In this document: one piece after another, positions 24,155-44,955 of the stretch
How positions within the stretch are numbered: the stretch's first letter is position 1
How the letters are laid out: each line of letters starts with the position of its first letter
Source: an uncultured Muribaculaceae bacterium
GTDB lineage: Bacteria; Bacteroidota; Bacteroidia; Bacteroidales; Muribaculaceae
NCBI GenBank assembly: GCA_947525975.1
Contig: CANNVE010000017.1
Span: forward strand, 1-57,475
Reading direction: 5' to 3'
DNA: 57,475 nt
Made by a program: the position numbers and the translations under genes
The notes under the pieces: generated by a model
What the model was told of the DNA's origin: nothing
Databases searched by the model: none
Seen by the model: only the letters and a program-made list of their open reading frames with translations

Positions 24155-27100
24155 ATGAAAGGAAAGAGCAAAAGTATCGACTCGTGCGTTCGCGCTGCGG
24201 TCGTGGCTTCCGCAATGCTGATGGGTGCGCCCCTGATGCCGTGGAGCGCGCCTATGGCAATGTACGCAGCCGAGCAAGGCACCTACACCATCAAGGGTAC
24301 GGTGATCGACTCTGAAGGCGAGCCTCTGATTGGCGCGTCAGTGATTGTGTCCGGCACCAAGGTCGGAGTATCGACCGACATCGATGGCAATTTCACTCTC
24401 CCCGGCGTATCGACAGGGGCCGAGCTGGAAGTGTCATACGTCGGCTTCAAGCCCATCAAAGTTAAAGTAGATGGGGCTCACGATTATGAGATCGTGATGA
24501 ACGAAGACTCAAATGTGCTTGACGAAGTGGTGGTAGTGGGCTATGGTACGCAGAAGAAAGCTACCATGACCGGCGCTGTCACCGCCATCGGCTCGGCATC
24601 ATTCGAGAAGAAGGGCAACCTCTCCAGCCCCGTGCAGGCTCTGCAGGGTCAGGTGCCCGGTGTAATCATCACCCGCAGCTCATCGGCTCCCGGCGACGAA
24701 AGCTGGGGCATGAAACTGCGTGGTGCCGTATCAAAGAACGGCTCAGACCCCCTGATCATCATCGACGGCATCGAATACGAGAGCGTCAACGAGCTTCGCC
24801 TCCTCAACCCCTCGGATATCGAGTCGATGAACTTCCTCAAGGATGCCGCCGCATCAATCTATGGTAGCAAGGCTGCCGGCGGCGTTGTCATCATCACCAC
24901 CAAGCGCGCCACCGAGGCCAAGACCCGCGTAGAGTACAACGGATCGTTCACCCTTAAGAAGATCGGTCTGTCATCAGAGATGATGTCGCTCGACCAGTGG
25001 TCAGACGCTGTGCTCCAGGCACGCTACAACGACGGCTACGACGACACCGACACATGGGTGCGCTACGCCAAGCTCGCTCTCGAGCACCGCAACCATTACA
25101 TCGACCTCGACCATTCAGGTCATCCCTGGGGCGGCACCGCATTCACCGACGTGGCCGACTTCACATTCTTCGACACTGACTGGCATGACATCATGTGGGG
25201 CGACTCTTGGGCCACCACCCATGAGGTAGCCGTGTCGGGCGGTAAGGAAGGCGCGCTCTTCCGCCTGTCGCTCGGATACATGTACGACGACTCTAACCTG
25301 AAGTGGGGCAACAACAACAACAACCGCTTCAACTTCCGCCTCACCAACCAGTTTGACCTCGCCAGCAACCTGAAGCTGCAGTCGATCGTCAGCTACAACC
25401 GTCAGGATCAGGTGGCTCCCACCCAGATTGGCGCGGCTCTCAACAGCCAGACCACCCAGCCCGGTTTCCCCTCGAGCACAATCGACGGCAAGCCCTACGG
25501 ATGGGGCACATGGGGCACTCCCAACTGGAAGGCTGAGCTCGGCGGCGACAACAAGCTCAAGGTGTCGGCCATCAACATTTCAGAGACCATCACCTGGGAG
25601 ATCCTCAAGGGACTGCGCGCCGTGGGTACCGTAGGCTACAACACCTCTACAGCCACCCGCGATATCAAGTCGCTCTCGATCGACTTCTACAACTATGCAG
25701 GCAACAAGAAGATCAACACCAGCCCCATCAGCAGCGACACATATTATGAGAAGTCAAACTCTCGCACCGACTTTTATTCAGTGCAGGGCTATCTCGAGTG
25801 GAGCAAGCTCTTCGCCGAGAAGCATGATGTCAAGCTCATGGGCGGTGCGCAGTACAACCTCAAGCAGTATGACTACACCCGCACCACAGCCAAGGAAATC
25901 AACCCCTCGCTCGACGTGATCAACGGCTCAGGCGATATCACCATCGGCCCGAGCGCATGGGAAGAGGCTATCATGTCATACTACGGACGTGCCAACTACG
26001 CTTACCTCGACAAGTATCTCTTGGAGGCACAGATCCGTTACGACGGCAGCTCTAAGTTCCAGCCCGAAAACCGCTGGGCGGCATTCTGGGGAGCATCGGC
26101 AGGCTGGCGTATCTCGCAGGAGAAATTCTTCGAGCCCCTGCGCGGATTCATCAACGAACTCAAGGTGCGCGCATCATACGGCAACGTCGGCAACCAGGGC
26201 GGCATCGACCGCTATGACGGCTCTCTGCTCTACAACTTCGCATCGAGCAGCGGCATCCTGATCAACGGCCAGCTCGTGTCTACGCTCAACACCAACGGCA
26301 AGCTCATCTCTACCGACCGCACATGGGAGCGCGTGCACAACTACAACCTTGGTGTTGACTTCGGTCTCTTCAACAACCGCCTGAGCGGTACGGTCGAAAT
26401 CTTCCGCAAGAAAATCAACAACATGCTCATCGACGTCAACTACCCCGGCATCCTCGGCGACAAGGCTCCTACAGCCAACCTCGGCAAGTTCAAGGCATGG
26501 GGCTGGGAAGGCCAGGTGGCATGGCGTGACCGCATCGGCAACGTAAACTACCACATCGGCGGTACATTCACCTACGCTGACAACGAACTTCTCGACAACG
26601 GCGGCGACGGCTCTGTCGCCAGCGGCGTGCGCAGCAACCGCGAGGGCTATCCCCTCAACTCGGTGTTCGGTCTCCGCTACTGCGGCAAGATCCAGACCCA
26701 GGAGCAGCTTGAGAAATACATCGACCGCTACGCTGCCACATCGCAGATAGGCAACATCAGCAAGCTCCGCCTCGGCGACAACATGTATGAGGACGTCAAC
26801 GGCGACGGCAAGCTCACCTCTGACGACTATGTATACCTCGGCACTGACGATCCCAAGATCCAGTTCTCGTTCAACTTCGGCATCGAGTGGAAGGGCTTCG
26901 ACGTAGAGCTCGTGTTCCAGGGCGCTTCGAAGCGCACCGTATGGCGCGACGACGCCAACCGTATCCCCATGCGCTCTGTCTACCTCAACAGTCCCGCATA
27001 TTCTGTAGGCCGCATCTGGTCAGAGGATAACCCCAACGGCTTCTATCCCTCTCTCACCAACCAGGCCGACATCAACAACTACAACTACCAGTGCTCGTCA

Positions 27101-27346
27101 TGGCAGGTGCAGGACGGCAGCTATCTGCGTCTGAAGAACCTGACCGTCGGCTACACCTTCCAGCCCTCTCTGCTGAAGAAGATCAAAGGCATCAACAGCC
27201 TGCGCGTATACTTCACCGGCACCGACCTCTGGGAGCACAGCAAGATCAACGACGGCTGGGACCCCGAAGCCTCGCGCAACGTGGGCGGCCTCAACCGCTA
27301 TCCCTTCCTGCGCAACTACACTGTGGGTCTTAACGTAGGATTCTAA
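24155..27346 (+). CDS. SusC/RagA-type TonB-linked outer membrane protein
   Basis: The 1063-residue outer membrane importer for oligosaccharides works with the SusD-like lipoprotein downstream. It has a long signal peptide (to about residue 40), then a carboxypeptidase-D-regulatory-like domain (about 46-120, TIKGTVIDSEGEPLIGASV). The SusC signature DEVVVVGYGTQKK (about 126-138) precedes a plug domain (SSPVQALQGQVPGVIITRSS, GGVVIITTKRA), and a 22-strand-type barrel ends LRNYTVGLNVGF. Codon choice is very C-rich, suggesting strong expression. It is the first gene of the 12-gene PUL operon. Confidence 0.98.
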   Translation: MKGKSKSIDSCVRAAVVASAMLMGAPLMPWSAPMAMYAAEQGTYTIKGTVIDSEGEPLIGASVIVSGTKVGVSTDIDGNFTLPGVSTGAELEVSYVGFKPIKVKVDGAHDYEIVMNEDSNVLDEVVVVGYGTQKKATMTGAVTAIGSASFEKKGNLSSPVQALQGQVPGVIITRSSSAPGDESWGMKLRGAVSKNGSDPLIIIDGIEYESVNELRLLNPSDIESMNFLKDAAASIYGSKAAGGVVIITTKRATEAKTRVEYNGSFTLKKIGLSSEMMSLDQWSDAVLQARYNDGYDDTDTWVRYAKLALEHRNHYIDLDHSGHPWGGTAFTDVADFTFFDTDWHDIMWGDSWATTHEVAVSGGKEGALFRLSLGYMYDDSNLKWGNNNNNRFNFRLTNQFDLASNLKLQSIVSYNRQDQVAPTQIGAALNSQTTQPGFPSSTIDGKPYGWGTWGTPNWKAELGGDNKLKVSAINISETITWEILKGLRAVGTVGYNTSTATRDIKSLSIDFYNYAGNKKINTSPISSDTYYEKSNSRTDFYSVQGYLEWSKLFAEKHDVKLMGGAQYNLKQYDYTRTTAKEINPSLDVINGSGDITIGPSAWEEAIMSYYGRANYAYLDKYLLEAQIRYDGSSKFQPENRWAAFWGASAGWRISQEKFFEPLRGFINELKVRASYGNVGNQGGIDRYDGSLLYNFASSSGILINGQLVSTLNTNGKLISTDRTWERVHNYNLGVDFGLFNNRLSGTVEIFRKKINNMLIDVNYPGILGDKAPTANLGKFKAWGWEGQVAWRDRIGNVNYHIGGTFTYADNELLDNGGDGSVASGVRSNREGYPLNSVFGLRYCGKIQTQEQLEKYIDRYAATSQIGNISKLRLGDNMYEDVNGDGKLTSDDYVYLGTDDPKIQFSFNFGIEWKGFDVELVFQGASKRTVWRDDANRIPMRSVYLNSPAYSVGRIWSEDNPNGFYPSLTNQADINNYNYQCSSWQVQDGSYLRLKNLTVGYTFQPSLLKKIKGINSLRVYFTGTDLWEHSKINDGWDPEASRNVGGLNRYPFLRNYTVGLNVGF

Positions 27347-27399: not shown

Positions 27400-29085
27400 A
27401 TGAAATCAATCATAAAATCAATGACAGTCGCTGCTCTGGCCCTGCTGTCGACATCTTGCCTCGACCTCGATCCCAAGGATCAGCTCGCGGATGGCAACCT
27501 GTGGGGGCGCGCAGCCGACTTCGAAAACTTCGCCAACAATTTCTACGGCTGGACCATTGATTTCGGTTCCGTAGTGATTCGCGACGGCCAGCACAGCGAC
27601 GTTCGCTCTGACATCATGGCCCTCAAAGGCGGAAAGAACGTGTTCGCAAACGGCACAAACACCATTCCCAATTCTGACGGCCTCTACACCGGCAACTACG
27701 CCAACATACGCCGCTGCAACCTCCTTCTGGAGAATGCCCCCAAATTCGCCCAGCAGGAAGACATCGCCCAGTACGTAGGCGAGGCCTACTTCTTCCGCGC
27801 CTACAACTACTTCAACCTCATGCAGGCATTCGGCGACCTGATCATCGTTGACCACTCGCTCGACGTGACCGACGCGCTGATGAAGGCTGAGCGCAACGAT
27901 CGCGTGGAGGTAGCCCGCTTCATCGTAGACGACCTCAACAACGCCGTGGAGAAGCTCAAGAACTTCTCGGAAGTGCCCTACGGACGCATCAGCAAGGAAG
28001 GCGCATACGCCTACCTGAGCCGCGTGGCCCTCTTCGAAGGCACATGGCAGAAATTCCGCGGCAACGAGACCGTGGCCAAGGAATTCCTCGACATCGCCGC
28101 AAAGGCCGCCAAGGAAGTGATCGACTCGAAGACTTTCGAACTCTTCAAGAATCCCGCCCTCGGCACCGACGCATACCGCTACATGTTCATCCTCGAGGAT
28201 GTGAAGAACAACCCCGCAGGCCTGACCAAGAGCGCCAACAAGGAATACATCTTCGTGCGCTGCCACGACGAGGTGCTGAAGCCCATCAACTACAACATCA
28301 GCTACGGCACAAGCCCCTCGGGCGGCGACGGACTGGCATCGAAGAAATTCGCCGACCTCTTCCTCTGCAGCGACGGTCTGCCCATCGAGATATCGCCCCG
28401 TTTCCAGGGATACACCAACATACGCAGCGAATGGCAGAACCGCGACACCCGCATGAGCACCATCCTCTGCCCTCCCGGAGCTGACATCTACGTCACCGGC
28501 TACAAGGCCCACACCAACTGGGACGAGACCGATGAGCCCCAGATCAAGAACTTCCAGCCCAACTACAACACCGGCTACAACAGCTGGAAATGGGTGGGCG
28601 AGCGCACCGCCAACACCGGTAAGGAAAGCTTTGACTTCCCCATCATCCGCTACGCCGAGGTGCTCCTCAACTACGCCGAGGCTGTATACGAGCGCGACGG
28701 ACGCATCAGCGATGAGGATCTGGCCATCTCGATCAACCTCACCCGCAAGCGCATCAACGAGAAGATGCCTGACCTCACCAACGCCTTCGTAAGCACCAAC
28801 GGCCTTGACATGCGCACCGAGATTCGCCGCGAGCGCACCATCGAGCTCTTCAACGAAGGCTTCCGCATCGACGACCTCAAGCGCTGGAAGACAGCCGAGA
28901 CCGAGATGCCCCAGGCTTTCCGCGGCAGCAAATTCTGCGGCGGCACACAGGATGCAGAAGGCTTCATGATTTTCGAGCCCGCAGGCGACCGCCAGTGGCT
29001 TGAGCGCAACTACCTGCTGCCCCTGCCCGTTGACCAGCGTCAACTCAACCCCAACCTCGGCCAGAACCCCGGCTGGGCAAGCTAA
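27400..29085 (+). CDS. SusD/RagB-type glycan-binding lipoprotein
   Basis: The 561-residue surface lipoprotein has its lipobox Cys at residue 20 (LLSTSC). It caps the SusC barrel and captures glycans. The SusD fold is recognisable from NLWGRAADFENFANNFYGW, YVGEAYFFRAYNYFNLMQAFGD, FPIIRYAEVLLNYAEAVYE and the C-terminal RRERTIELFNEGFRIDDLKR, ending YLLPLPVDQRQLNPNLGQNP. It starts 53 nt after susC. The gap contains a small hairpin (aatcc and ggatt arms) typical of the susC-susD junction region. Confidence 0.97.
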   Translation: MKSIIKSMTVAALALLSTSCLDLDPKDQLADGNLWGRAADFENFANNFYGWTIDFGSVVIRDGQHSDVRSDIMALKGGKNVFANGTNTIPNSDGLYTGNYANIRRCNLLLENAPKFAQQEDIAQYVGEAYFFRAYNYFNLMQAFGDLIIVDHSLDVTDALMKAERNDRVEVARFIVDDLNNAVEKLKNFSEVPYGRISKEGAYAYLSRVALFEGTWQKFRGNETVAKEFLDIAAKAAKEVIDSKTFELFKNPALGTDAYRYMFILEDVKNNPAGLTKSANKEYIFVRCHDEVLKPINYNISYGTSPSGGDGLASKKFADLFLCSDGLPIEISPRFQGYTNIRSEWQNRDTRMSTILCPPGADIYVTGYKAHTNWDETDEPQIKNFQPNYNTGYNSWKWVGERTANTGKESFDFPIIRYAEVLLNYAEAVYERDGRISDEDLAISINLTRKRINEKMPDLTNAFVSTNGLDMRTEIRRERTIELFNEGFRIDDLKRWKTAETEMPQAFRGSKFCGGTQDAEGFMIFEPAGDRQWLERNYLLPLPVDQRQLNPNLGQNPGWAS

Positions 29086-29091: not shown

Positions 29092-29113
29092 AATTTTGAA
29101 TTTGAATTTTGAA
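29092..29113 (+). repeat. short gaatttt tandem repeat
   Basis: Units gaatttt-gaattt-gaatttt-ga lie between the susD stop and the next ATG. This is a simple-sequence A+T stretch like the larger heptamer array at 32.0 kb. Confidence 0.5.
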
Positions 29114-29123
29114 AATTCCGGAA

Positions 29124-30542
29124 ATGAAACTTCACAATATAATTAAAGGCATGGCTTTTGTCGGAGCATCGGCGCTGATGCTGACATCGTGCGACGACGA
29201 AAAGCTGCTCACCACTGACTTTGAGGAGACTCGCATCCCCACCGAGGTGCAGCTCCACGTGAGCGAGATACTGCCCGTGGGCGTGGGCATGGACACCACC
29301 CTGTCATACACCCTGCTTCCTCTCGACTTCCCCGATCGCGAAGTGGCTTTCCTCACCTCTAACGAGAATGTGGCCACCGTCGATCCCGACGGCACAGTGC
29401 ATGGCGTGTCGGTGGGCGAAGCCACTATCACCTGCACCCTCCCCATCGGCTTCGGCCCTTACTCTAACGTCACCATCCAGGTGATCTCTGAGGTGGTGAA
29501 GGCCGAGTCGCTCACCGTGGTCAACACCACCGACCTCGGCGAGGAAGGCAAGATATTCGTGACCGACGAGATTCAGCTCCAGGCCCAGATCCTGCCCGAG
29601 AACCACACCTACGACCGCGTGACATGGCACTCGTCAAACGAGGGCATCGCCACAGTAGATGAGAACGGCCTCGTGAAGTGCCTCGCTCCCGGCCAGGTTG
29701 AGCTCACCGCTATCACCACCGACCGCAGCGGCGTCAAGGGCTCGATCGTGCTCGACATCGTGCCTTACATCGCAGCCGAGTCTATCACTATCGCTCCTTT
29801 GGCAGAACCCGTCTGCATCGTAGGCGGCCCCGTGGCTCTCAACGTCACCTACACCCCCGCAGGTGCTACTCTCGGCTCTGTAGAGTGGAAGTCATCTGAC
29901 GAGACCGTCGCCACCGTGCACCGCGGCGTAGTCACCCCCACAGGCTTCGGCACAGTCACCATCATCGGCACTTGCGTCGAGACCGGCGAAGAGGCTCAGG
30001 TGACCATCGAAATCCCCGCAGGCTGGTATGTATGGAATGCAGCCAACGGCTTCATGGGCATCAACAAGGCTACATCATGGATCTCAAACAACGAGAACCC
30101 CAACATCGAGAATGGCGTATGGCGCGTTCACTTCCCCGATGCCGGCACCGGCAAGTGGCGTCGTGACTTCAAGCTTAACTGCAGCAACAACGACCTCTTC
30201 CAAATGCACAAGTCGATGCCCGTGCTCGCATTCCGCAACACAGTGCCTACGGGCGGCAACAACACCTGGGACGTGCGCGACTCAGGCAACCCGAAGGACA
30301 ACGCGGGCTTCCCTCTGCCCGACGGCACCCGTCTGATCATGATCGACCTCACCGCCAAGTTCGCAGGCTGGGATGCCTTCCACGGCTTCAACCTCTTCCA
30401 GCTCAAGGTGGCCGACATCCCCAACGCCAACGTTGACAGGAACAAGGCTTACTACGACATCTTCTGGATCCGCACGTTCGCAACAGCTGACGAGGCCAAG
30501 GCATTCGCTACCGCCGACGCAGAAGCAAACCCCATACAATAA
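29124..30542 (+). CDS. surface glycan-binding lipoprotein with Big_2 domains
   Basis: The 472-residue lipoprotein (Cys23 in LMLTSCDDE) starts at ATG 29124, since the in-frame TTG at 29109 is inside the A+T repeat. Three immunoglobulin-like Big_2 repeats are visible at about 30-110, 115-200 and 205-290, each with the motif NENVATVDPDG, NEGIATVDENG or DETVATVHRG. A distinct C-terminal module (about 300-472, starting WYVWNAANGFMG) contains many aromatic residues and ends FWIRTFATADEAKAFA; it may be a DUF4979-like carbohydrate-binding domain. The position after susCD is that of a SusE/F-type surface glycan-binding protein. Confidence 0.88.
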   Translation: MKLHNIIKGMAFVGASALMLTSCDDEKLLTTDFEETRIPTEVQLHVSEILPVGVGMDTTLSYTLLPLDFPDREVAFLTSNENVATVDPDGTVHGVSVGEATITCTLPIGFGPYSNVTIQVISEVVKAESLTVVNTTDLGEEGKIFVTDEIQLQAQILPENHTYDRVTWHSSNEGIATVDENGLVKCLAPGQVELTAITTDRSGVKGSIVLDIVPYIAAESITIAPLAEPVCIVGGPVALNVTYTPAGATLGSVEWKSSDETVATVHRGVVTPTGFGTVTIIGTCVETGEEAQVTIEIPAGWYVWNAANGFMGINKATSWISNNENPNIENGVWRVHFPDAGTGKWRRDFKLNCSNNDLFQMHKSMPVLAFRNTVPTGGNNTWDVRDSGNPKDNAGFPLPDGTRLIMIDLTAKFAGWDAFHGFNLFQLKVADIPNANVDRNKAYYDIFWIRTFATADEAKAFATADAEANPIQ

Positions 30543-30568: not shown

Positions 30569-32002
30569 ATGAAATTTTTCAGCTATATATTGTTGGGCGC
30601 AGCCATCAGTCTCGGTGCATCATCCTGCACCGAGATTGAGGATGGCTACACCGACATCGATTCATGGCCCACAGTGGTGAAGCCCGTTGACTACGAATAC
30701 GACATCACCGCAGAGAACATGGGCGTATACAACAAGAGCGACTTCGCCCGCGTGAAGGCTGCCCTCGCCGATGGCACCGCTCCCGCCAAGGTCAAGGAGG
30801 AATTCGAACTCCTGAAGCAGAGCCGCTTCGCTGGAATCAACTACATCCCCAATCCTCTGGAATGGGTGGTGCGCGGCAAGGATGACGGCAACCACGGCAA
30901 CGCCGCCGGCGGCCAGAACTATCAGTCATTCATGAATGACGCCACCGCCGCCTACCAGACTGCCATGCTCTGGCACCTGACCGGCGACGACCAGTACGCA
31001 GCCACCTGCGCCAACATCATGAACCAGTGGGCGGCAAAGTGCAAGGGCGGATTCTCTACCGACTCTAACGCTACGCTGCTGGCCGCACAGAGCTACACAT
31101 TCGCCTGCGCCGCTCTCATGCTGCAGGAATACACCGGCTGGCAGGCAAGCGAGCAGGAGACTTTCAAGAAGTGGCTCAAAGAGAAGTGGGCTTCGGGCAA
31201 CAAGGACTTCATGGATCGCCACCACGACACCTGCCTCGAGCACTACTGGAGCAACTGGGACCTCGTGTGCATGTGCTCTTACCTTTCGATCGGCATCCTC
31301 GACCGCAACGATGAGATGATCAACTACGTGGTCAACTTCTTCTACCGCGGCAACGACCAGGGCATGAGCAACGGCAACATCTATCGCCTCTGCAACGCAT
31401 TCCACAACGATCCCCTCGGCTCGGGCGAGATCATCGGCCAGAACCAGGAGAGCGGACGTGACCAGGGTCACGCCCAGATGTCGGTGGCTGTGGCAGGCCA
31501 GCTCGCCCAGCTCGCTTACTCGCTCTTCAAGACCAACCCCGACAAGCCCCAGCTCGACTTCTTCGCAGCCAACGACAACGCTCTGATGAAGATGGCGGAA
31601 TACGTGGCTCTCTTCAACCTCCGCGACGGCAACGACCAGGGTAACGCCCAGGGTAGCTGGCTGGTGAAGAGCGCAGAGACTTTCCCCTTCCAGAAATACA
31701 TCTACTGCGGCGGCGCTAACCAGGAAGGCCCCCTCTGCAGCTGCAGGGGCGCTCACACCCACGGCGCAACCCACACACAGGTGGCCAACGACGGCGGTCG
31801 CGGCAATCTGCGCCCCAACTGGGAGATCTTCTACAACCACTACAAGAACGAGAAGAATCTCGCCACCGGCTACAAGTACGCCAAGATGGCCGCTGACAAG
31901 ATGCGTCCCGAGTGCGGCTCAGGCGATGCCCGCTACGGCTTCAACTCCGGCGCTTTCGACCAGGTAGGCTGGAACACCCTGATGATGTACCAGGGAGAGT
32001 GA
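30569..32002 (+). CDS. alginate-lyase-family polysaccharide lyase, lipoprotein (PL38-like?)
   Basis: The 477-residue lipoprotein (Cys20, LGASSC) has an (alpha/alpha) toroid-type alginate-lyase domain. Landmarks are NQESGRDQGHAQMSVAVAGQ (about 291-310), FMNDATAAYQTAMLWHLTGD, RHHDTCLEHYWSNWDLVCM and the aromatic C-terminus. The ESGRDQxH motif is characteristic of the Alginate_lyase Pfam family. Among CAZy families I favour PL38 (glucuronan/alginate lyases), but this needs a profile search. It is probably surface-exposed, making the first cuts in a uronate-rich chain. It is the last of the four strongly codon-biased genes of the operon. Confidence 0.8.
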   Translation: MKFFSYILLGAAISLGASSCTEIEDGYTDIDSWPTVVKPVDYEYDITAENMGVYNKSDFARVKAALADGTAPAKVKEEFELLKQSRFAGINYIPNPLEWVVRGKDDGNHGNAAGGQNYQSFMNDATAAYQTAMLWHLTGDDQYAATCANIMNQWAAKCKGGFSTDSNATLLAAQSYTFACAALMLQEYTGWQASEQETFKKWLKEKWASGNKDFMDRHHDTCLEHYWSNWDLVCMCSYLSIGILDRNDEMINYVVNFFYRGNDQGMSNGNIYRLCNAFHNDPLGSGEIIGQNQESGRDQGHAQMSVAVAGQLAQLAYSLFKTNPDKPQLDFFAANDNALMKMAEYVALFNLRDGNDQGNAQGSWLVKSAETFPFQKYIYCGGANQEGPLCSCRGAHTHGATHTQVANDGGRGNLRPNWEIFYNHYKNEKNLATGYKYAKMAADKMRPECGSGDARYGFNSGAFDQVGWNTLMMYQGE

Positions 32003-32005: not shown

Positions 32006-32177
32006 CTAATTAGGAATTAGAAATTAGGAATTAGTAATTAGTAATTTAATGTGCTAATTGCTAATTCCTGATTCCTAAAAAAACTAAATTTGCCAAAAGC
32101 TAATTCCTAATTCCTAATTACTAATTACTAATTACTAATTACTAACTACTAATTGAATAATTACTAATTCCTAATTG
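32006..32177 (+). repeat. heptamer tandem repeats arranged as an inverted repeat
   Basis: A left block (about 32006-32046) has five TTAGNAA units, such as ttaggaa and ttagtaa. The right block (about 32100-32177) has more than eight complementary units of CTAATTN type (ctaattc, ctaatta). The blocks can pair into a long A+T hairpin. The spacer between them contains a TAAATTTG promoter box at 32085-32092. Confidence 0.85.
32085..32092 (+). promoter_or_regulatory. TAAATTTG -7 box inside the heptamer array
   Basis: A TAnnTTTG match 92 nt upstream of the ATG at 32184, in the unpaired centre of the repeat array. It could serve as an internal promoter for the distal PUL genes. Confidence 0.45.
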
Positions 32178-32183
32178 ACAAAA

Positions 32184-33620
32184 ATGAGGTCTTTCGCTAT
32201 CGCTTCTTTCTCGTTAATCGCGCTTGCATCGCAGGCCGCGATCGTAAATTATCCTGCCCCGAAGGGCGCCGAACTCAACGACGCATTCACCGTGAAGGTA
32301 TGCGAGAAAGGCGGTGACTGGCAGCAGGTCGACGTATACAAAGTCAAGGTCGACGAGGTGGTAGGAGCCAAGCATGTGGCTCGCCCCGTGTCGATGGCCT
32401 ACTTCGACTGCGACGCAGAAGCGAATGTGATGGTGATCTCAAATGCCCAGCCCGTGAAGACGGCACAGGTGCGCCCGCAAAGTTACGGCATCACCCCCGA
32501 AATCAAGGCTGACACACTATATTTCACCGCAAAGCCTCTGCAGCAGATGAGCGTGGAGGTCAACGGCGAGATATTCAACAATCTGCATCTTTTCGTCAAT
32601 CCGATAGATGCTGACGCGCCCACAGCCAAGGCGCTCAAAAAACTCAAGAAAAACAAGGACTATGTCTATTTCGCTCCCGGATACCACAAGCTCGACAGCG
32701 CTCTGCGCATAGGCTCGGGCCAGACGGTGTATGTGGCTGGCGGGGCAGTGATCGACGGCTGCATCGAGGTGCTCGACGCTGAGAATGCGCGCCTCATAGG
32801 CCGCGGCATGGTCTATCCCAATCACGCGCTCGGCATCACCGTGCGCAACAGCAAGAACGTAGAGGTCAGCGGCCTCTTCACCACACAATGCGCGGTGGGC
32901 GGCAGCGACAGCGTCGGCATCAGCAACGTGAAGGTGATGAGCTGGTACGGCTGGGGCGACGGCTTCAACGTATTTGCCTCTAACAATGTGCGCTACAACA
33001 ACGTGTTCGCGCGCACCAGCGATGACTGCCACACCATCTACTGCACACGCAAGGGATACGACGGCAGCAGCTGCAACATCACAATGGACGACGCCGTGCT
33101 CTGGGCCGATGTGGCTCACCCGATCATGATCGGACTCCACGGCAGCTTCAATCCGGAAAAGCCCGACTCGGTGGTCGGCGCTCACTACCGCAATATCGAC
33201 ATTCTCGACCACAGCGAGAACCAGATCGACTACCAGGGATGCCTCACCATCAACTGCGGCGACAACAACCTGGTGAAAGATATCACATTTGACGACATAC
33301 GCGTTGACAACTTCCGCAAAGGCCAGCTCGTCAACATGCGCATTTTCTACAACAAGAAATACTGCGAGGCTCCGGGCAGGAGCATCGAAAACATAACCCT
33401 CCGCAATGTAACTTACGACGGCGACAACGCCGCCCTCTCGATCATAGCCGGATACAATGAGGCACGCAAGGTGAAAGGCGTGAAATTCGTCAACCTCCGC
33501 CTCAACGGACGTCTTATCTCCGATGATATGCCCGAGAAGCCGAAGTGGTACAAGACATCTGACTTCGCCAACATGTTCGTGGGCGAGCACGTGGAGGATG
33601 TAACTTTCATAACCGAATAA
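32184..33620 (+). CDS. GH28-like right-handed beta-helix protein (putative glycoside hydrolase)
   Basis: The 478-residue exported protein (signal peptide MRSFAIASFSLIALASQAA) has an N-terminal beta domain and a right-handed parallel beta-helix from about residue 150. Residues GWGDGFNVFASNNV and ARTSDDCHTIYC recall the NTDG and DD motifs of GH28 polygalacturonases, but the GHG and RIK motifs are not obvious, so it is not a canonical GH28. The ATG at 32184 is chosen over the in-frame TTG at 32175 because it begins the signal peptide. It starts after the heptamer array, 182 nt from the lyase gene. Confidence 0.75.
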   Translation: MRSFAIASFSLIALASQAAIVNYPAPKGAELNDAFTVKVCEKGGDWQQVDVYKVKVDEVVGAKHVARPVSMAYFDCDAEANVMVISNAQPVKTAQVRPQSYGITPEIKADTLYFTAKPLQQMSVEVNGEIFNNLHLFVNPIDADAPTAKALKKLKKNKDYVYFAPGYHKLDSALRIGSGQTVYVAGGAVIDGCIEVLDAENARLIGRGMVYPNHALGITVRNSKNVEVSGLFTTQCAVGGSDSVGISNVKVMSWYGWGDGFNVFASNNVRYNNVFARTSDDCHTIYCTRKGYDGSSCNITMDDAVLWADVAHPIMIGLHGSFNPEKPDSVVGAHYRNIDILDHSENQIDYQGCLTINCGDNNLVKDITFDDIRVDNFRKGQLVNMRIFYNKKYCEAPGRSIENITLRNVTYDGDNAALSIIAGYNEARKVKGVKFVNLRLNGRLISDDMPEKPKWYKTSDFANMFVGEHVEDVTFITE

Positions 33621-37789: not shown

Positions 37790-39376
37790 ATGAAAAAGAT
37801 CATAACCGCCGCCGCGATGCTCTGCGCAGTCTTCGTGGCTTGGGGAAAGACCTACACCAATCCGGTGATTTACGCTGACTACAGCGATCCCGACGCCATC
37901 CCGGCCCATGACGGCAAGGGATATTACATGACTGCCTCGAGCTTTCAGTGTGTGCCCGGCGTGCCCATTCTCTACAGCGACGACCTTGTGCATTGGGAGA
38001 TCGTAAACTATGCCATCGACGCAGTGCCTCCGACTGAGGTCTATGACCGGAAGCCGATGCACGGCAAGGGCGTATGGGCGCCGTCGATCAGATTCCACGA
38101 CGGCGAATACTACATATATTGGGGCGACCCTGACTTCGGCATCTACATGGTGAAGACGGCCGATCCGCTCGGAGAGTGGAGCAAGCCTGTGCTCGTGCAT
38201 GGCGCCAAGGGCATGATCGACCCTGTGCCTTTCTGGGATGAGGACGGCAAGGCATACCTGACGTTTGCCTGGGCGGCGAGCCGCAGCCACTTCAACAGCG
38301 TGCTCTGCGTGTGGGAGATGACTCCCGACGGCACTTCGCTCATCGGCAATCCGCGCATCGTTTTTGACGGCAACGAAGACGGCAACCACACCTGCGAGGG
38401 TCCCAAGATGATGAAGCGCGACGGATACTACTACATCCTCTGCCCGGCGGGCGGCGTTGATGCCGGCTGGCAGCTGGCCATGCGCTCGAAGAACATCTAT
38501 GGCCCCTATGAGTCGAAGATCGTGCTCGCGCAGGGCGACACCGACATCAACGGCCCCCACCAGGGCGCGCTTGTGGAGACGCCTGAGGGCGAGAGCTGGT
38601 TCATCCACTTCCAGGAGCTGCAGCCGTGGGGACGCATCGTGCATCTCAACCCGGTCAACTGGCAGGACGGATGGCCCATGATGGGCGTTAACGGCCAGCC
38701 CGTGCGCAAGCATGAGATGCCCAAGGGCAAGGTGGTGGAGCGCGAGCATCAGACGTCTGATACTTTCGACAACGGCGCTCCCGGCCTGCAATGGCAATGG
38801 CACGGCAATTACGACCCTACATTCGGTATGCCGCTTCCGGCTGACGCTATGCGCATATACAGCCGCACACTGGCGGAGGGCGAAAACATGTGGTCGGCTC
38901 CCAACCAGCTGCTCCAGAAATTCGCCAAACCCCAGTTTACCGCCACCGCCAAAGTGAAGGTGTCGACACGCGACGAAAAGGCCCAGTCAGGCCTGATAGT
39001 GATGGGCCGCGACTATGCCCGCCTTGCAGTGAGCAAGAAAGGCGATGACTTTGTGGTGACTCTGCTCGAATGCAACGAGGCCGAAGCCGGCAGCCCCGAG
39101 AAAGTCACCGGAGAGTCTGCTCCTGTGAAGGCTCATCAGTATGGCGCCGGTCTGCATCCTGTCTATGACTGCGAGCTTTGGCTGAGGGTGAAGGTTGGGA
39201 AGGACGGCGAATGCCGCTTCTCATACAGCACCGACAATAAGAAATACGTGAGCATCGGCAAGCCTTTCAAGGCGCGTCCCGGCAAGTGGATCGGAGCCAA
39301 ACTTGGCGTTTACAGCGTGGATTTCGGTTCGGCTGACCGCGGATGGCTCGACATCGACGAGTTTATTGTAGATTGA
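37790..39376 (+). CDS. GH43 family glycosidase (beta-xylosidase/arabinofuranosidase type)
   Basis: The 528-residue secreted protein starts one base after the preceding stop codon. A five-bladed propeller GH43 domain occupies about 22-310, with catalytic base D33 (YADYSDPD), pKa-modulating D144 (MIDPVPFWD) and acid E203 (HTCEGPKMM). A C-terminal concanavalin-like domain (about 320-528, from TFDNGAPGLQWQWHGNYDP) is as in GH43 subfamily 12 beta-xylosidases. It should trim xylose or arabinose from the oligosaccharides; the exact sugar is uncertain. Confidence 0.93.
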   Translation: MKKIITAAAMLCAVFVAWGKTYTNPVIYADYSDPDAIPAHDGKGYYMTASSFQCVPGVPILYSDDLVHWEIVNYAIDAVPPTEVYDRKPMHGKGVWAPSIRFHDGEYYIYWGDPDFGIYMVKTADPLGEWSKPVLVHGAKGMIDPVPFWDEDGKAYLTFAWAASRSHFNSVLCVWEMTPDGTSLIGNPRIVFDGNEDGNHTCEGPKMMKRDGYYYILCPAGGVDAGWQLAMRSKNIYGPYESKIVLAQGDTDINGPHQGALVETPEGESWFIHFQELQPWGRIVHLNPVNWQDGWPMMGVNGQPVRKHEMPKGKVVEREHQTSDTFDNGAPGLQWQWHGNYDPTFGMPLPADAMRIYSRTLAEGENMWSAPNQLLQKFAKPQFTATAKVKVSTRDEKAQSGLIVMGRDYARLAVSKKGDDFVVTLLECNEAEAGSPEKVTGESAPVKAHQYGAGLHPVYDCELWLRVKVGKDGECRFSYSTDNKKYVSIGKPFKARPGKWIGAKLGVYSVDFGSADRGWLDIDEFIVD

Positions 39377-39393
39377 AAAAAATAATAATACAC

Positions 39394-40608
39394 ATGAATA
39401 AAACTATCTTATCTCTTTCGCTGATATCGATCGCAGCTGCCGGAGCGGTGGTTGCCTGCACAAAGGCGCAGGCTGAAGAGGCTCCGGCCATAGACATAGA
39501 CCGCGTTTTCGCTGATTGCCACAATAAGGTATCTAATTCACTTGAATCTCTCAAAGACTCTGCCGGAGCCATCAACTACATGATCGCTCCGCGCAATATC
39601 GCCCCCGGCCAGACCACCTGGCACCAGCGCCCCGTATGCGCCGAAGAGTGGTGTTCGGGCTTCTGGCCCGGCGTGCTGTGGATGGACTATGCCGCCAACG
39701 GCGACAAGAAGGTGGAGCGCGAGGCCCGCGCCTACACAGAGTCGATAAAGACCATTGTAGACGCTCCGGTGTTCGACCACGATCTCGGATTCCTGGTGCT
39801 GTGCAGCTACGGCAAGGGCTATGAGTGCACACAGGACCCCGAATATAAGAAGGTGATGCTCAATGCCGCCGACTCGCTCGCCACGCTCTTCAACCCGCAG
39901 GTGGGCACCCTGCTCTCATGGCCCCGCAATGTGGAGATGTTTGGAGGCCACAACACCATCATGGACAACATGATCAATCTTGAGCTGCTTTTCTGGGCGG
40001 CCAAGAATGGCGGCGACCAGAAGCTCTATGACATAGCCGTGAGCCACGCCGACACTACGATGACCTATCATTTCCGCCCTGACGGCACGTGCTACCATGT
40101 GGCCGTATACGACCCCGAGAGCGGCGCGTTCAAGCGCGGCTGCACCCATCAGGGATATTCCGACTCGTCAACATGGGCGCGCGGACAGGCCTGGGCCATC
40201 TACGGATACACCATGGTATACCGCGAGACGAAAGATCCTAAGTATCTCTCTTTCGTGAAGAAGGTGACCGACGCCTACCTCTCGATGCTGCCTGACGACA
40301 AGATTCCCTATTGGGACTTCAACGACCCCACGATACCGCATTGCAGCAAAGACGTGTCGGCGGCATGCGTGGTGGCATCGGCTCTGCTCGAGCTCAAGGA
40401 TTATGTTGGCGAAACTGACAGCGAGAGGTATGATTCAGAGGCCAAAGCTATGCTGACGAGCCTTACTTCTGACGACTATTGGTCGGCCGATAGCGACTCT
40501 TTCCTGCTTCACTCCACAGGTCACCGCCCTGCCGGCAGCGAGATCGACTACAGCATTGTCTACGCTGACTATTATTTCTACGAGGCGATGCTGCGCCTGA
40601 AGAAGTGA
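39394..40608 (+). CDS. GH88 unsaturated glucuronyl hydrolase, lipoprotein
   Basis: GH88 enzymes remove the 4,5-unsaturated uronic acid left at the non-reducing end by polysaccharide lyases. The 404-residue protein begins MNKTILSLSLISIAAAG with lipobox AVVAC (Cys22). The ATG at 39343 is rejected because it lies inside the GH43 gene and lacks a signal sequence. Catalytic aspartates are D130 in FDHDLGFL and D191 in TIMDNMINLELLFW, and further conserved elements are SGFWPGVLWM and SSTWARGQAWAIYGY. Presence of GH88 beside lyases is strong evidence for a uronate substrate. Confidence 0.95.
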   Translation: MNKTILSLSLISIAAAGAVVACTKAQAEEAPAIDIDRVFADCHNKVSNSLESLKDSAGAINYMIAPRNIAPGQTTWHQRPVCAEEWCSGFWPGVLWMDYAANGDKKVEREARAYTESIKTIVDAPVFDHDLGFLVLCSYGKGYECTQDPEYKKVMLNAADSLATLFNPQVGTLLSWPRNVEMFGGHNTIMDNMINLELLFWAAKNGGDQKLYDIAVSHADTTMTYHFRPDGTCYHVAVYDPESGAFKRGCTHQGYSDSSTWARGQAWAIYGYTMVYRETKDPKYLSFVKKVTDAYLSMLPDDKIPYWDFNDPTIPHCSKDVSAACVVASALLELKDYVGETDSERYDSEAKAMLTSLTSDDYWSADSDSFLLHSTGHRPAGSEIDYSIVYADYYFYEAMLRLKK

Positions 40609-40663: not shown

Positions 40664-41461
40664 ATGAATGAATTTTCGCTTGACGGCAAGGTGGCGTGGG
40701 TCACCGGCGCCGCCTATGGCATAGGGCTTGCGATAGCCCGGGGGCTTGCGAAGGCAGGCGCCAAAATCGTGTTCAACTGTTCTCGCCAGTCCACCGTCGA
40801 CCGTGGCCTGGAGGCATACAAAGCACTCGGCATCGACGCCAAGGGCTATGTGTGCGATGTGACTGACGAGGCCGCTGTGAAGGCGATGCTCGCCGACGTG
40901 GAGGCAACAGTGGGCACCGTCGACATTCTTGTCAACAACGCAGGCATCATCAAGCGTGTGCCGATGGAGGAGATGGACGTCGATGATTTCCGCCGTGTGG
41001 TCGACGTTGACCTTGTGGCTCCCTTCATATGCGCCAAGGCAGTCATCCCCGGCATGATCAAGAAGGGACACGGCAAGATCATCAATATCTGCTCGATGAT
41101 GAGCGAGTTGGGCCGCGAGACGGTGAGCGCATACGCCGCAGCCAAGGGAGGCCTGAAGATGCTGACCCGCAATATCTGCTCTGAATATGGCGCGGCCAAC
41201 ATACAGTGCAACGGCATTGGCCCCGGATACATAGCCACAGAGCAGACCGCTCCGCTGCGCGAGCTGCAGCCCGACGGCAGCCGCAATCCGTTTGACCGCT
41301 TCATCATTTCTAAGACTCCGGCGGGCAGATGGGGCACTCCCGAGGATCTGATGGGACCCGCCGTGTTCCTCGCATCGGATGCCTCTGACTTTGTCAATGG
41401 CCACATTCTTTACGTAGACGGCGGCATTCTCGCATATCTTGGCAAAAATCCCATAGAGTGA
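40664..41461 (+). CDS. KduD-like 2-dehydro-3-deoxy-gluconate 5-dehydrogenase (SDR)
   Basis: The 265-residue cytoplasmic short-chain dehydrogenase has a nucleotide-binding TGAAYGIG at 14-21, NNAG, and the catalytic Ser in ICSMMSE with Y157 and K161 (YAAAK). The close family contains gluconate 5-dehydrogenases and KduD. Inside a lyase/GH88 locus the most sensible role is reduction of 2,5-diketo-3-deoxygluconate to KDG, feeding the kinase at 51675-50656. No KduI isomerase or Eda aldolase is in the window. It follows GH88 after 55 nt. Confidence 0.82.
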   Translation: MNEFSLDGKVAWVTGAAYGIGLAIARGLAKAGAKIVFNCSRQSTVDRGLEAYKALGIDAKGYVCDVTDEAAVKAMLADVEATVGTVDILVNNAGIIKRVPMEEMDVDDFRRVVDVDLVAPFICAKAVIPGMIKKGHGKIINICSMMSELGRETVSAYAAAKGGLKMLTRNICSEYGAANIQCNGIGPGYIATEQTAPLRELQPDGSRNPFDRFIISKTPAGRWGTPEDLMGPAVFLASDASDFVNGHILYVDGGILAYLGKNPIE

Positions 41462-41468: not shown

Positions 41469-43046
41469 ATGAGAAGATTCCTTACAGCGATAGCGCTTTT
41501 TTGCGCGGCACTCGGTGCCATGGCCCAGTGGCAGTGGCGTGTGCCCGTGACCGGGATAGTCTCGGGTGAGACCAACGACAATCCCGACGCATTTCTATGG
41601 GTGCCTGAGCGGTGCGACAGCGTGAAGGCCGTGATCTTCGCGTTTCAGAACATGAACGAGGAGACCATCTTCGAGATGGAGTCTTTCCGTCGCCATCTGG
41701 CCGATATGGATGTGGCCATGGTGTGGATCGCGCCCGGCTTTGGCCAGGAGTGGGATGTGACAAAGGGAGTGCAGGAGCCGTTTGACAAGGCTCTCGCCGA
41801 TCTTGCCGAGGCATCAGGCTACAGCGAGATCGCCACCGCTCCGCTCATCCCTTTCGGGCATTCGGCGCAGGCCACAATGCCATGGAATTTCGCCGCTTGG
41901 AATCCTGACCGCACTCTTTGCGTGATATCATATCACGGCGATGCTCCCCGCACAAATCTTTGCGGTTATGGCCGCGCCAACGTAGAGTGGGGCAGGGACC
42001 GGAACATCGACGGCATCCCCGGCCTGATGATTGAGGGCGAATATGAGTGGTGGGACGCCCGTGTGCGTCCGGCTCTCGCTTTCAAGATGAAATATCCCGG
42101 GAGCTGTGTGTCATTTCTTGGCGATGCGGGCCGCGGACACTTTGATGTGGCTGAGCGCACTGCCGACTACATCGCTAAATTCATAGAGAAATCATTGGCC
42201 GCGCGTCCCGGGATGAAGAAAGTAGATCCGAAGGACGGCTGGCTGGCGGAGCAGTGGGATCCTGCGCAAACCAAGCGCGTGAAGGCCGCTCCCTGGGGCA
42301 AATACAAGGGCAATCAGCATGAGGCTTTCTGGTATTTCGACAAGGAGATGGTCGATCTCACCGAAGCCCGCTATGCAGAGACTCGCGGAAAGCAGCCCAT
42401 GACCATCAATTTTGAGCAGGATGGAAAATTGCTGCTGTATGACGAGAATCTGCATGTGCGCACCCGCGCCAAATTCGAGCCTGAGGCTGACGGCATCACA
42501 TATCACATCAAGGCTGTGTTTGTCGACACCACCCACAATGCCCTCGCCGGCAGCCACCCTGCTGCGCAGCCGGCGGTGAAGCGAATCTGCGGTCCGGTGA
42601 AGGTGGTCAACGACACCACATTCAAGGTCGACTTCTACCGCATGGGCATGAACAATCCGCGCCGCACCTGGGATATGGTGCTGTGCGCCGAGGCTCCTGG
42701 CGATGACACATTCAAGGAATCGGTGCAGCAGATAGAGATCAAATTGCCTTTTCGTCACACCGGCGGCCTGCGTCAGGCCATCCTTTTCCCCTCGATCCAG
42801 GATGTGGAGGCAGGGGCAGAATCCGTGGAGCTGAAAGCCACATCTGACCAAGGTTTGCCTGTGAGCTATTATGTGAAGGAAGGCCCGGCGGTGATAGATG
42901 GCGATAGGCTGTTTTTCACGCCTATCCCTCCGAGGGCAAAATTCCCGGTGAAGGTCACAGTGGTGGCTTGGCAGTATGGCCTGAAGGACAAGGTGCAGAC
43001 GGCTGAGCCCGTAGAACGGAGTTTCTACATAAAAAAATCGAAATGA
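41469..43046 (+). CDS. secreted alpha/beta-hydrolase-like protein, putative carbohydrate esterase
   Basis: The 525-residue exported protein (signal peptide ending ALGAMA) starts 7 nt after the dehydrogenase stop. An alpha/beta-hydrolase-type nucleophile elbow is visible, PFGHSAQATMPW with S132; a candidate catalytic His is H224 in GRGHFDVAERT. The second half (about 300-525) is beta-rich, with two sandwich-like parts, one near the end (VKVTVVAWQYGLKDKV). I do not recognise a CAZy esterase family. In this operon it might remove acetyl, methyl or other esters from uronate oligosaccharides (inference). Confidence 0.65.
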   Translation: MRRFLTAIALFCAALGAMAQWQWRVPVTGIVSGETNDNPDAFLWVPERCDSVKAVIFAFQNMNEETIFEMESFRRHLADMDVAMVWIAPGFGQEWDVTKGVQEPFDKALADLAEASGYSEIATAPLIPFGHSAQATMPWNFAAWNPDRTLCVISYHGDAPRTNLCGYGRANVEWGRDRNIDGIPGLMIEGEYEWWDARVRPALAFKMKYPGSCVSFLGDAGRGHFDVAERTADYIAKFIEKSLAARPGMKKVDPKDGWLAEQWDPAQTKRVKAAPWGKYKGNQHEAFWYFDKEMVDLTEARYAETRGKQPMTINFEQDGKLLLYDENLHVRTRAKFEPEADGITYHIKAVFVDTTHNALAGSHPAAQPAVKRICGPVKVVNDTTFKVDFYRMGMNNPRRTWDMVLCAEAPGDDTFKESVQQIEIKLPFRHTGGLRQAILFPSIQDVEAGAESVELKATSDQGLPVSYYVKEGPAVIDGDRLFFTPIPPRAKFPVKVTVVAWQYGLKDKVQTAEPVERSFYIKKSK

Positions 43047-43083: not shown

Positions 43084-44955
43084 ATGAATAAAACTATTTG
43101 CATAGCCATGTTGGCTCTTCCTTCGCTGGCTTTCTGCGCCGAGACGCTGACGCTGACTTCGCCTTCCGGAGTGAATGAGATCAGCATGCGCAAGCCTGCA
43201 GGCGAACTGACATATTCGGTAAGCTACAAGGGCAATCCGGTCATCGTGGATGCCCGAGCGGGTCTTGACATCGACAATTGGGTGTGGGAGATGGCTCTCG
43301 GAAAGCGTGACCTGAAGCAGCCCGCTTGCTGGATGGATCTGCTTGAGGTGGACTCTGTTACTTACGGCGCACCTGTCGACAGCGTGTGGCATCCGCTCTA
43401 CGGAGAGCGCAGCACCGTGCACGACCGGTACAATACGGCCACAATGCACATGAGCCGCCACGACAAGAGCAAATATCGCCTTGATGTGGAGGTGCGCGCC
43501 TACGACGAAGGCCTGGCTTTCCGCTATTTCTTTCCGGAGCATCCCGACGCTATCTTCCACAAGGTGGTCGATGACCTCACGTCATACAACTTCCCGGAGG
43601 GCACCAAGGCATGGAGCGAGAAGTGGGCACAGTCGACATTCGACGTTACGCCTGTCGACTCGATAACCCGCCCCGTGGAGCGCGCTCTCACCCTCGAGCT
43701 GCCCGACAGCAAGGGCTGGGTGGCTCTCCTCGACGCCGATGTCGATGATTGGTGCCTCACCAAGTATGTCGCTGACCCCAAAGTGCCCGGCACTCTGCGT
43801 TCGGTGATGTATTCGCCTGTAGACATTGTCACTTATTACGCCACTCCGTGGAAGATAGTGATGACTGCCGACACCCCCGGGCAGCTCATCGAGCAGAATG
43901 ACATTGTGCTCAATCTCAATCCTCCCTGCGAGATCGAAGACACCTCATGGGTGAAGCCCGGCAAAATCATGCGATGCACCAAGCTCACCACCGATGCAGC
44001 CAAGGAAGTGATTGATTTCTGCGCCGACCACGGCATGCAGTATATGCTCTACGACTGGAAATGGTATGAGCCATGCACAAGCCATGACGGCGATGCCACC
44101 AAGGTGATCGATGCCATCGACATGGCCGAGGTGGTGCGCTATGGCAAGGAGAAGGGCGTGGGAATCTGGCTCTACGTCAACCAGCACGCCTTGCAGAAGC
44201 AGATGGATGAACTCTTCCCCCTGCTGCATGAGTGGGGAGTGGCCGGTGTGAAGTCAGGCTTCGTGCAGTATGCCTCCCACCGCTGGGCCACATGGCTGCA
44301 TGACATGGTGCGCCTCGCCGCCGAAAACAAGCTGCTGATGAACATCCACGACGAATACCGTCCGTCAGGCTTCTCGCGCACATATCCCAACCTCCTGACC
44401 CAGGAAGGAATTTGCGGCAACGAGGAGTGGCCCGACGCCACGCACAATGTGACGCTGCCATTCACCCGCATGATCAACGGCGCCGCCGACTACACCATCT
44501 GCTACTACGACAAGCGCCTGAAAAATACCACCCACGCACATCAGCTTGCGGCTTCGCTCGTATACTACAGCCCTCTGCTCACCCTATTCTGGTATGACAC
44601 GCCGGCTCTCTATGGCGGCGAGAAGGAAATTTCATGGTTTGAGCAGCTGCAGAGCGTATGGGATGATTCGAAGGTGCTGAGCGGATATCCCGGCGAGTCA
44701 ATCGTAATGGCCCGTCGCAGCGGCGATGTTTGGTATGCCGCTGCCATGACCAACAATGAGGCATCTACCCAGCAGATAGACTGCGGTTTCCTCACTCCCG
44801 GCAAGAAATACATGGCCACGATCTACACTGACGACCCCAAGGTCGACAGCAAGACCCACGTGCGCGTCAGCGAGAAGAAAGTGACCTCTAAAGATGTGCT
44901 CAAATTTGACCTTCAGCCTCAGGGCGGAGTAGCCGTGCGCTTCAATCCGCTTTGA
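43084..44955 (+). CDS. GH97 family alpha-glycosidase
   Basis: The 623-residue secreted protein has an N-terminal beta-supersandwich, a TIM barrel and a small C-terminal beta domain as in SusB. Landmarks are DEGLAFRYFFPEHPDA, YMLYDWKWYEP (about 320-330), GVAGVKSGFVQY (about 386-396), IHDEYRPSGFSRTYPN (about 421-436) and QEGICGNEEW. A Gly follows Ser in VKSGFV where retaining GH97 enzymes carry a nucleophilic Asp, so an inverting, SusB-like mechanism is more likely (inference). It is the last gene of the PUL operon, with a large hairpin after it. Confidence 0.92.
   Translation: MNKTICIAMLALPSLAFCAETLTLTSPSGVNEISMRKPAGELTYSVSYKGNPVIVDARAGLDIDNWVWEMALGKRDLKQPACWMDLLEVDSVTYGAPVDSVWHPLYGERSTVHDRYNTATMHMSRHDKSKYRLDVEVRAYDEGLAFRYFFPEHPDAIFHKVVDDLTSYNFPEGTKAWSEKWAQSTFDVTPVDSITRPVERALTLELPDSKGWVALLDADVDDWCLTKYVADPKVPGTLRSVMYSPVDIVTYYATPWKIVMTADTPGQLIEQNDIVLNLNPPCEIEDTSWVKPGKIMRCTKLTTDAAKEVIDFCADHGMQYMLYDWKWYEPCTSHDGDATKVIDAIDMAEVVRYGKEKGVGIWLYVNQHALQKQMDELFPLLHEWGVAGVKSGFVQYASHRWATWLHDMVRLAAENKLLMNIHDEYRPSGFSRTYPNLLTQEGICGNEEWPDATHNVTLPFTRMINGAADYTICYYDKRLKNTTHAHQLAASLVYYSPLLTLFWYDTPALYGGEKEISWFEQLQSVWDDSKVLSGYPGESIVMARRSGDVWYAAAMTNNEASTQQIDCGFLTPGKKYMATIYTDDPKVDSKTHVRVSEKKVTSKDVLKFDLQPQGGVAVRFNPL

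Follow-up and report, generated by a model that had tools for sequence, protein, structure and literature searches.

Which polysaccharide does a gene cluster combining putative uronate lyases with side-chain hydrolases serve in an uncultured Muribaculaceae bacterium? We analysed a 57,475-nucleotide stretch of contig CANNVE010000017.1 (the window), in which twelve genes at 24155–44955 all lie on the forward strand, with intergenic gaps of −34 to +172 bases (Table 1). Adjacent susC and susD homologues are accompanied by co-directional carbohydrate-active enzymes at short gaps, and the region is a co-directional 12-gene SusC/D-type PUL, with the coordinates and enzyme families of the original prediction. 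Families were called by Pfam and NCBIfam profile searches of the gene products, and a terminator scan downstream of the PUL found none. A literature search found no described PUL with this gene set: papers combining its terms seemed to be metagenome or genome surveys, and those on glucuronomannan seemed to concern algae. The question is one of substrate assignment within a known kind of system rather than of a new system type. We think it probable that the PUL acts on a branched polysaccharide with an internal 4-linked uronate in its backbone, most likely beta-D-glucuronate.

Table 1. Genes of the PUL and its upstream neighbours, with the evidence for each family call.
Feature	Coordinates	Strand	Evidence
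GH31	15359–17845		Pfam; upstream of PUL
GH35-like/DUF5597 gene	17914–19578		Pfam; upstream of PUL
Putative regulator	19609–22371	−	Reg_prop propeller, AraC-type HTH (Pfam); one apparent membrane segment (by eye)
DUF4861 protein	22424–23851	−	PF16153, 223 bits
SusC, TonB-dependent importer	24155–27346	+	TIGR04056, 883 bits
SusD	27400–29085	+	PF07980, 152 bits
Candidate surface glycan-binding protein (SGBP)	29109–30542	+	Big_2 repeats, DUF4979, lipoprotein-like N terminus; position kept in 14 loci
PF05426 (alginate-lyase family) protein, candidate surface lyase	30569–32002	+	40.7 bits (cut-off 22.2); lipoprotein-like
GH28-like beta-helix hydrolase a	32175–33620	+	25.4 bits (cut-off 22.9); Asp and Asp-Asp motifs 14/14
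Heparinase II/III-like lyase (HepLy)	33639–35903	+	Hepar_II_III_C, 69.3 bits; triad invariant 8/8
GH28-like beta-helix hydrolase b	35893–37788	+	24.2 bits (cut-off 22.9); WIDGLN and GNDDTF by eye
GH43 with GH43_C2 (C-terminal concanavalin-like domain)	37790–39376	+	Pfam; PDB 6mly E 1.2e-47; Asp/Asp/Glu motifs
GH88 unsaturated glucuronyl hydrolase	39343–40608	+	47.9 bits; HDLGF and MDN motifs 8/8
SDR dehydrogenase, DhuD/PRK07097 type	40664–41461	+	Profile scores
Alpha/beta-hydrolase-like protein, candidate serine esterase, C-terminal Ig-like part	41469–43046	+	No Pfam match at E≤1
GH97, non-canonical subgroup	43084–44955	+	All three GH97 domains

Parts of this gene set recur in relatives. Among 25 loci each chosen by a single member of the set, 18 carried at least one further of seven core families, whereas two core families occurred together in none of 41 control loci, which were shorter than many of these loci (8.6–20 kb against 10–57 kb) and had been chosen by GH127 in two cases and by DUF4861 or SusD in the others. 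Core families thus cluster in related loci beyond chance, with the control contrast serving as an indication rather than a test. SusC, SusD, SGBP and the PF05426 protein form a constant core in 14 loci, and because four of these (G024, G059, G038 and G078) carry no other core family within the fetched span, the PF05426 protein looks to be the enzyme paired with import. PF05426 matches occurred in 13 genomes, and loci were fetched from all of these but G076, G179 and G186; from a second set of matches, all strong ones but G203 and none of the weak C-terminal ones were used, and a search for related loci among genome contigs returned one relative.

PL38 was the nearest characterised PL family to the PF05426 proteins from the PDB search. 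Profile matches to the PDB were weak (3nfv, E 4.7e-4; the PL38 entry 8bdq, E 0.023 over 107 positions), and a single-sequence search gave no match at E≤0.1. N229, W230, R297 and H301 were invariant in 13/13 sequences, though not aligned to the PL38 catalytic residues. PL5 enzymes carry His where a Trp follows N229 here, and this difference, together with the weak PDB matches, counts against our preferred reading and its putative lyase chemistry. A structure prediction of the protein, given only the L027 relative as alignment, had a mean pLDDT of 35.4, too low for use. The likeness to PL38 lyases (BoPL38, 8bdq; the glucuronan lyases CUL-I and TpPL38A) thus consists of a common Pfam family region and a weak profile match; unlike them, the protein is a predicted lipoprotein encoded next to SusD and SGBP. 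In the available text of PMC13027841, PL38 enzymes are lyases of alginate or of beta-1,4-glucuronan, and one acts on hyaluronan.

Asn178, Tyr237/242 and His396/398 of HepLy agree with the triads in the available portion of PMC12088678, and HepLy shares this Asn-Tyr-His catalytic triad and its C-terminal domain family with heparinase II/III-fold lyases of the PL17, PL35 and PL12 type. Unlike them, it has weak, partial-length similarity to PDB entries (best E 1.1e-7) and is not assignable to one PL family. HepLy also bears the His-Asn pair, in the order of PL17 and GAGase III, that the same portion of PMC12088678 describes for alginate-type lyases, its GAG-only lyases having Asn instead. The pair makes a substrate that is mannuronate-like, or unlike GAG, somewhat more likely than glucuronate, against our preferred backbone. 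An alginate or brown-algal polymer would suit both this pair and the presence of PF05426 and heparinase-like lyases. We rejected alginate as the main substrate and consider such a PUL very improbable, since the twelve genes gave no PL6 or KdgF family match, unlike the B. eggerthii alginate PUL with its PL6, PL17 and KdgF (PMC11381880, in its available text), and GH43, GH97 and GH127 are not needed for alginate breakdown.

The two beta-helix proteins had been described as non-canonical and listed together with the lyases. Both exceed the GH28 cut-off and keep the three Asp; they look like hydrolases, and we rejected a lyase assignment. Form b was present, among the 25 loci, only here and in L027. 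The pair hints at galacturonate, a point against glucuronate, and might be the main backbone machinery of a pectin PUL directed at rhamnogalacturonan or xylogalacturonan side chains, all the more as KduI/KduD serves the pectin route too and a separate DUF4861 subgroup adjoins true GH28 and GH43 genes. We nevertheless judge pectin decidedly unlikely: the GH28 scores barely clear the cut-off, the locus has GH88 rather than GH105, the Pfam matches of the twelve genes include no PL1, PL9, PL10 or PL11, and the lyase–SusC/D core is independent of GH28, occurring alone in 4/14 loci.

GH88 and the dehydrogenase bear on uronate catabolism. The GH88 domain retains two Asp motifs, presumably catalytic, in every aligned sequence, and its nearest solved structures are all unsaturated glucuronyl hydrolases or GH88 (3wiw, the closest, E 6.2e-75; 1vd5, E 1.1e-56). 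The SDR had been called KduD, a name we rejected because it scored 233.4 bits against the KduD equivalog TIGR01832, below the curated cut-off of 338.85, and 484.5 against the gluconate-5-dehydrogenase model PRK07097, above its cut-off of 369. Its uronate role stands, because relatives place this SDR beside KduI. In relative G073 the PUL runs on, all on the forward strand, into GH88–DUF4861–DhuD–EIIC–KduI–oxidoreductase–PfkB kinase, and contig C43 of the source genome carries DUF4861–DhuD–EIIC–KduI–KDPG aldolase. The predicted combination of lyase, GH88 and uronate catabolism is upheld by this operon continuity and by the intact GH88 motifs and HepLy triad. DUF4861 relatives likewise adjoin GH88 or KduI/DhuD genes; the 38 DUF4861 loci used were taken from the higher-scoring matches, with some lower ones, rather than at random. 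Against the preferred reading, KduI lay within 1/25 loci, DhuD at ≥80% identity in 3/25, and the mannose gene PMI in 1/25 only. As in streptococcal and Bacteroidota unsaturated-uronate catabolism (GH88, KduI or DhuI, DhuD), GH88 and a DhuD-type SDR share an operon and KduI is in the genome; unlike there, the pathway is tied to a branched-polymer PUL and a secreted DUF4861 protein.

These same enzymes could instead serve a polymer that is not of plant origin, a non-sulfated GAG-like or capsular one such as heparosan, hyaluronan or a bacterial capsule. The 3wiw enzyme is heparin-specific, and the SDR is closest to 3cxr and to gbs1891, a streptococcal enzyme from GAG clusters; the heparinase II/III-like lyase and the hyaluronan-cutting PL38 enzyme mentioned above fit too. 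However, GH43 here and GH127, GH39 and GH2 in relatives are unfit for GAG, the HepLy pair is alginate-type, and neither hexosaminidase nor sulfatase is among the twelve genes. PF00884 matched three proteins in the whole genome and none on the window's contig. As predicted from the lack of sulfatases in it, this is not a typical sulfated GAG locus. We judge a GAG-like substrate decidedly unlikely as well.

The hydrolases bear on the side chains. GH43 keeps its Asp/Asp/Glu motifs and appears to be of beta-xylosidase or alpha-L-arabinofuranosidase type; with GH127 in 9/25 loci (a fragment in G073, cut by the locus end in L027), GH39 in 2/25 and GH2 in 2/25, it suggests pentose- and galactose-type side chains. 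Alpha-hexose branches had been predicted from GH97, which shares all three of its domains with SusB and BT1871. Unlike them, in 13/13 sequences it has Gly where a retaining nucleophile would stand, and the positions of E439 and E508 are taken by Asn and Asp, respectively. The strand-4 Asp nucleophile motif of retaining alpha-galactosidases, as given in the available text of PMC10086023, is therefore replaced by Gly, and YVN(Q/K/H) and HD stand in place of the HHET and HE of inverting alpha-glucosidases, again in 13/13. Judged by its residues, this GH97 belongs to neither characterised class, and for that reason an alpha-hexose branch is not secure. The product of 41469–43046, predicted to be an unclassified hydrolase and indeed Pfam-less, has H131, S132, E191, E193 and H224 invariant in 12/12 sequences. 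A PDB sequence search with it returned nothing relevant, a profile search returned one nanobody (E 0.61), and a single-sequence structure prediction had a mean pLDDT of 34.1, likewise too low for use.

From these elements we infer the cellular locations, the order of steps and the substrate as follows. SGBP and SusD would capture the polymer, and the PF05426 lipoprotein would act on the cell surface, where it would cleave the backbone by beta-elimination; we infer this because the protein belongs to the constant four-gene core and has a lipoprotein-like start. Oligosaccharides would enter through SusC. Side groups would then be removed in the periplasm by GH43, GH97, the GH28-like enzymes and the candidate esterase, while HepLy would trim uronate oligosaccharides there. 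GH88 would free unsaturated uronate, which KduI (encoded elsewhere, on contig C43) and the DhuD-type dehydrogenase would convert to KDG. Among specific substrates our best guess is a decorated plant gum, perhaps of glucuronomannan or similar type, though taken on its own this is doubtful. Less probable still is the joint reading of an undescribed PUL class for a glucuronomannan-type plant gum, present in nine or more families belonging to one order, in which surface PF05426 lyase and GH88 would take an alternating GlcA–Man backbone to unsaturated uronate and free mannose without a mannosidase, and which would include three parts that had gone unrecognised: a GH97 subgroup whose catalytic residues form a third set, a family of serine esterases outside Pfam and a secreted DUF4861 protein with a role in unsaturated-uronate metabolism. 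If our main reading is right, the gene set is a recurring, testable kit for a uronate-bearing polymer, to which no PUL in the literature searched is assigned, and it flags three enzyme groups, the GH97 subgroup lacking either known catalytic set, the Pfam-less esterase-like family and DUF4861.

The GH31 and GH35-like genes had been predicted to flank the PUL. Both lie upstream, separated from it by the regulator and DUF4861 genes on the opposite strand (19609–23851); nothing linking them to the PUL was found, and we rejected them as members. The original prediction was silent on these two divergent genes. A literature search on DUF4861 found nothing; the protein's true start is probably at about residue 69, ahead of a lipobox-like SAC. 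Pfam matched no histidine kinase or receiver domain in the regulator. In this, and in its enzyme set, the locus is unlike the usual Bacteroidota SusC/D-type PULs, with which it shares SusC, SusD, SGBP, a linked sensor-type regulator and co-directional CAZymes.

The window PUL comprises 12 genes (24155-44955), with SusC first, GH97 last and intergenic gaps of -34 to +172 bases, in a 2.9 Mb genome of 56 contigs with 16 SusD matches; the SusC/D systems suggest a member of Bacteroidales. The original prediction of this gene set was borne out: the locus is a real, recurrent PUL built from known enzyme families. The prediction did not recognise their combination as a described PUL, and no PUL with this combination was found described in our literature search (PULDB not covered). 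The PUL is of interest as a case of substrate assignment; as a kind of system, it is ordinary.

Features of the window PUL, its surroundings and the regulators compared (genes 1-12 in PUL order)
Feature	Sequence	Coordinates	Strand
Reg_prop/HTH_AraC regulator	window	19609-22371	-
DUF4861 protein, upstream of PUL	window	22424-23851	-
1, SusC	window		+
2, SusD	window		+
3, Big_2/DUF4979 protein, lipoprotein-like, SGBP candidate	window		+
4, PF05426 'alginate lyase' protein	window	30569-32002	+
5, GH28-like protein (a)	window	32175-33620	+
6, heparinase II/III-like protein	window	33639-35903	+
7, second GH28-like protein (b)	window	35893-37788	+
8, GH43	window		+
9, GH88	window		+
10, SDR dehydrogenase	window	40664-41461	+
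11, protein without Pfam match (hydrolase)	window	41469-43046	+
12, GH97	window	43084-44955	+
Protein downstream of PUL	window	45272-46186	
Reg_prop regulator	L099	1219-4158	
Reg_prop regulator	L032	10462-13302	
Reg_prop regulator	L037	5802-8546	

PF05426 was matched in 13 of the 198 genomes searched in the window's own family, and the hydrolase in 29 of 344 genomes of its order (own genome included in both), many of the latter matches being weak and limited to the C terminus. A further 23 regions, covering 22 of these matches and the locus L027, were retrieved, so that the comparison took in 25 loci from 21 genomes, including the window and contig C25 of the same genome. At least two of seven core families (PF05426, GH28-like a, heparinase-like, GH88, hydrolase, GH97 and GH127) were present in 18/25 loci, spanning nine families of the order, and in 0/41 control loci; the remaining seven held only the family used to pick them. 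SusC, SusD, SGBP and PF05426 genes were adjacent in 14/25 (window, L027, G073, G196, G117, G191, G024, G059, G038, G078, G183, G360, G452 and G216). L027 was collinear with the window from the regulator through the dehydrogenase, with PUL genes 68-95% identical, and these two loci alone among the 25 carried GH28-like b. Where the window has the hydrolase, L027 starts a GH127 gene (81% identical to that of G191); the locus ends within this gene, and any counterparts of the window hydrolase and GH97 would lie beyond it. The L027 record (JAMPBQ010000010.1) is titled 'Clostridium sp.' and carries the SusC/D and regulators of the PUL; it is probably a mis-named MAG, its SusC/D content contradicting its title. 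In 11 loci (L028-L035, L036, L080 and L081; one representative tested) the PUL or SusC had an ECF-sigma-like gene as its neighbour; such a gene was absent beside the PUL in the window and L027, where the DUF4861 gene adjoins susC.

GH88, with 3wiw and 1vd5 as nearest solved structures, kept the HDLGF and MDN motifs, whose Asp residues we take to be catalytic, in 8/8 aligned sequences. GH28-like a kept DG and DD in 14/14, and the GH43 Asp/Asp/Glu motifs were clearly kept in 5/6. H131-S132, E191, E193 and H224 were invariant in 12/12 hydrolase family members, as in a serine esterase, a candidate role. The PF05426 protein exceeded the Pfam cut-off and matched, as a profile only, 3nfv (E 4.7e-4) and PL38 8bdq (E 0.023); N229, W230, E294, R297, D298 and H301 were invariant in 13/13. 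In the heparinase-like protein H177-N178, Y237/Y242 and H396/H398 were invariant in 8/8. PMC12088678 describes a Tyr, His, Asn lyase triad, with a neighbouring His in alginate-type lyases and Asn in GAG-only lyases; the window protein has the His.

The window GH97 was compared by alignment with the retaining enzyme 3a24 and with the inverting SusB (2d73), whose residue numbers were read off the alignment; the roles of the SusB residues compared are partly our assumption. It has Gly at the 3a24 strand-4 Asp position, Asn at E439 and Asp at E508, and keeps Glu at E526 and E532, a pattern identical in 12 related proteins (13/13). Throughout this group YVN(Q/K/H), GF and HD replace HHET, the strand-4 Asp and HE. 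Inverting members carry HHET and HE, and retaining members Asp, according to PMC10086023; by those motifs the group has neither residue set.

The dehydrogenase had 3cxr as its nearest match and also resembled gbs1891 (4u8g). Originally predicted as KduD, it failed KduD models and passed PRK07097 'gluconate 5-dehydrogenase'; we call it DhuD, a name that comes from a GAG context. In G073 the PUL is followed directly, on the same strand, by genes for GH88, DUF4861, DhuD (87%), EIIC-type permease, KduI, oxidoreductase and PfkB kinase. KduI lay inside the locus itself in 1/25. A single KduI is encoded in the window's genome, on contig C43, within a DUF4861-DhuD (71%)-EIIC-KduI-KDPG aldolase cluster, and the uronate pathway is therefore complete in the genome.

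DUF4861 was carried by 58/247 genomes of the order. Among 39 loci examined (38 picked by DUF4861 and C43 by KduI), DhuD at at least 50% identity occurred in 12, KduI in 10 and either in 14, one or the other being the next gene to DUF4861 in 10. Most DUF4861 N termini looked signal- or lipoprotein-peptide-like by eye, and we read DUF4861 as a putative secreted partner of uronate catabolism. Another DUF4861 group adjoins GH28 and GH43 genes. DUF4861 proteins recurring beside KduI and/or DhuD include those of the window, L096, L139, L144, L149, L151, L162 and L165. The four Reg_prop proteins tested (914-979 aa) had an AraC-type HTH and no matched kinase or receiver domain; they are apparently membrane-bound one-component regulators.

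The substrate assignment is a guess, because mannose-6-phosphate isomerase (PMI) occurs in 1/25 loci and the His-Asn pair and GH28-like enzymes pull towards alginate-like or pectic uronates. At that level, GH88 and the PL38 kinship would point to glucuronate, and GH43, GH127, GH39 and GH2 to side chains. Gum ghatti has an alternating GlcA-Man backbone, from which free mannose would be expected after lyase and GH88 action, but the rarity of PMI weakens this reading. The one PMI lies, with a ROK kinase, in a second PUL of the window's genome (C25, L037) that also holds a fused PF05426-GH88 protein (775 aa), GH97 and GH43; ROK kinases also occur in G191 and by the second locus of G260. GH127 was present in 9/25 loci (a fragment in G073, cut in L027), and GH39 and GH2 in 2/25 each. 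Contig C3 of the window's genome (L095) carries, near GH29 and GH106-like genes, a GH127 that shares 79% identity with the nearest GH127 of the compared loci and may be the arabinofuranosidase missing from the window PUL. In L031 and L032, proteins that otherwise differ end in a stretch matching the last 45 residues of the protein encoded downstream of the PUL, a pattern expected of a sorting domain.
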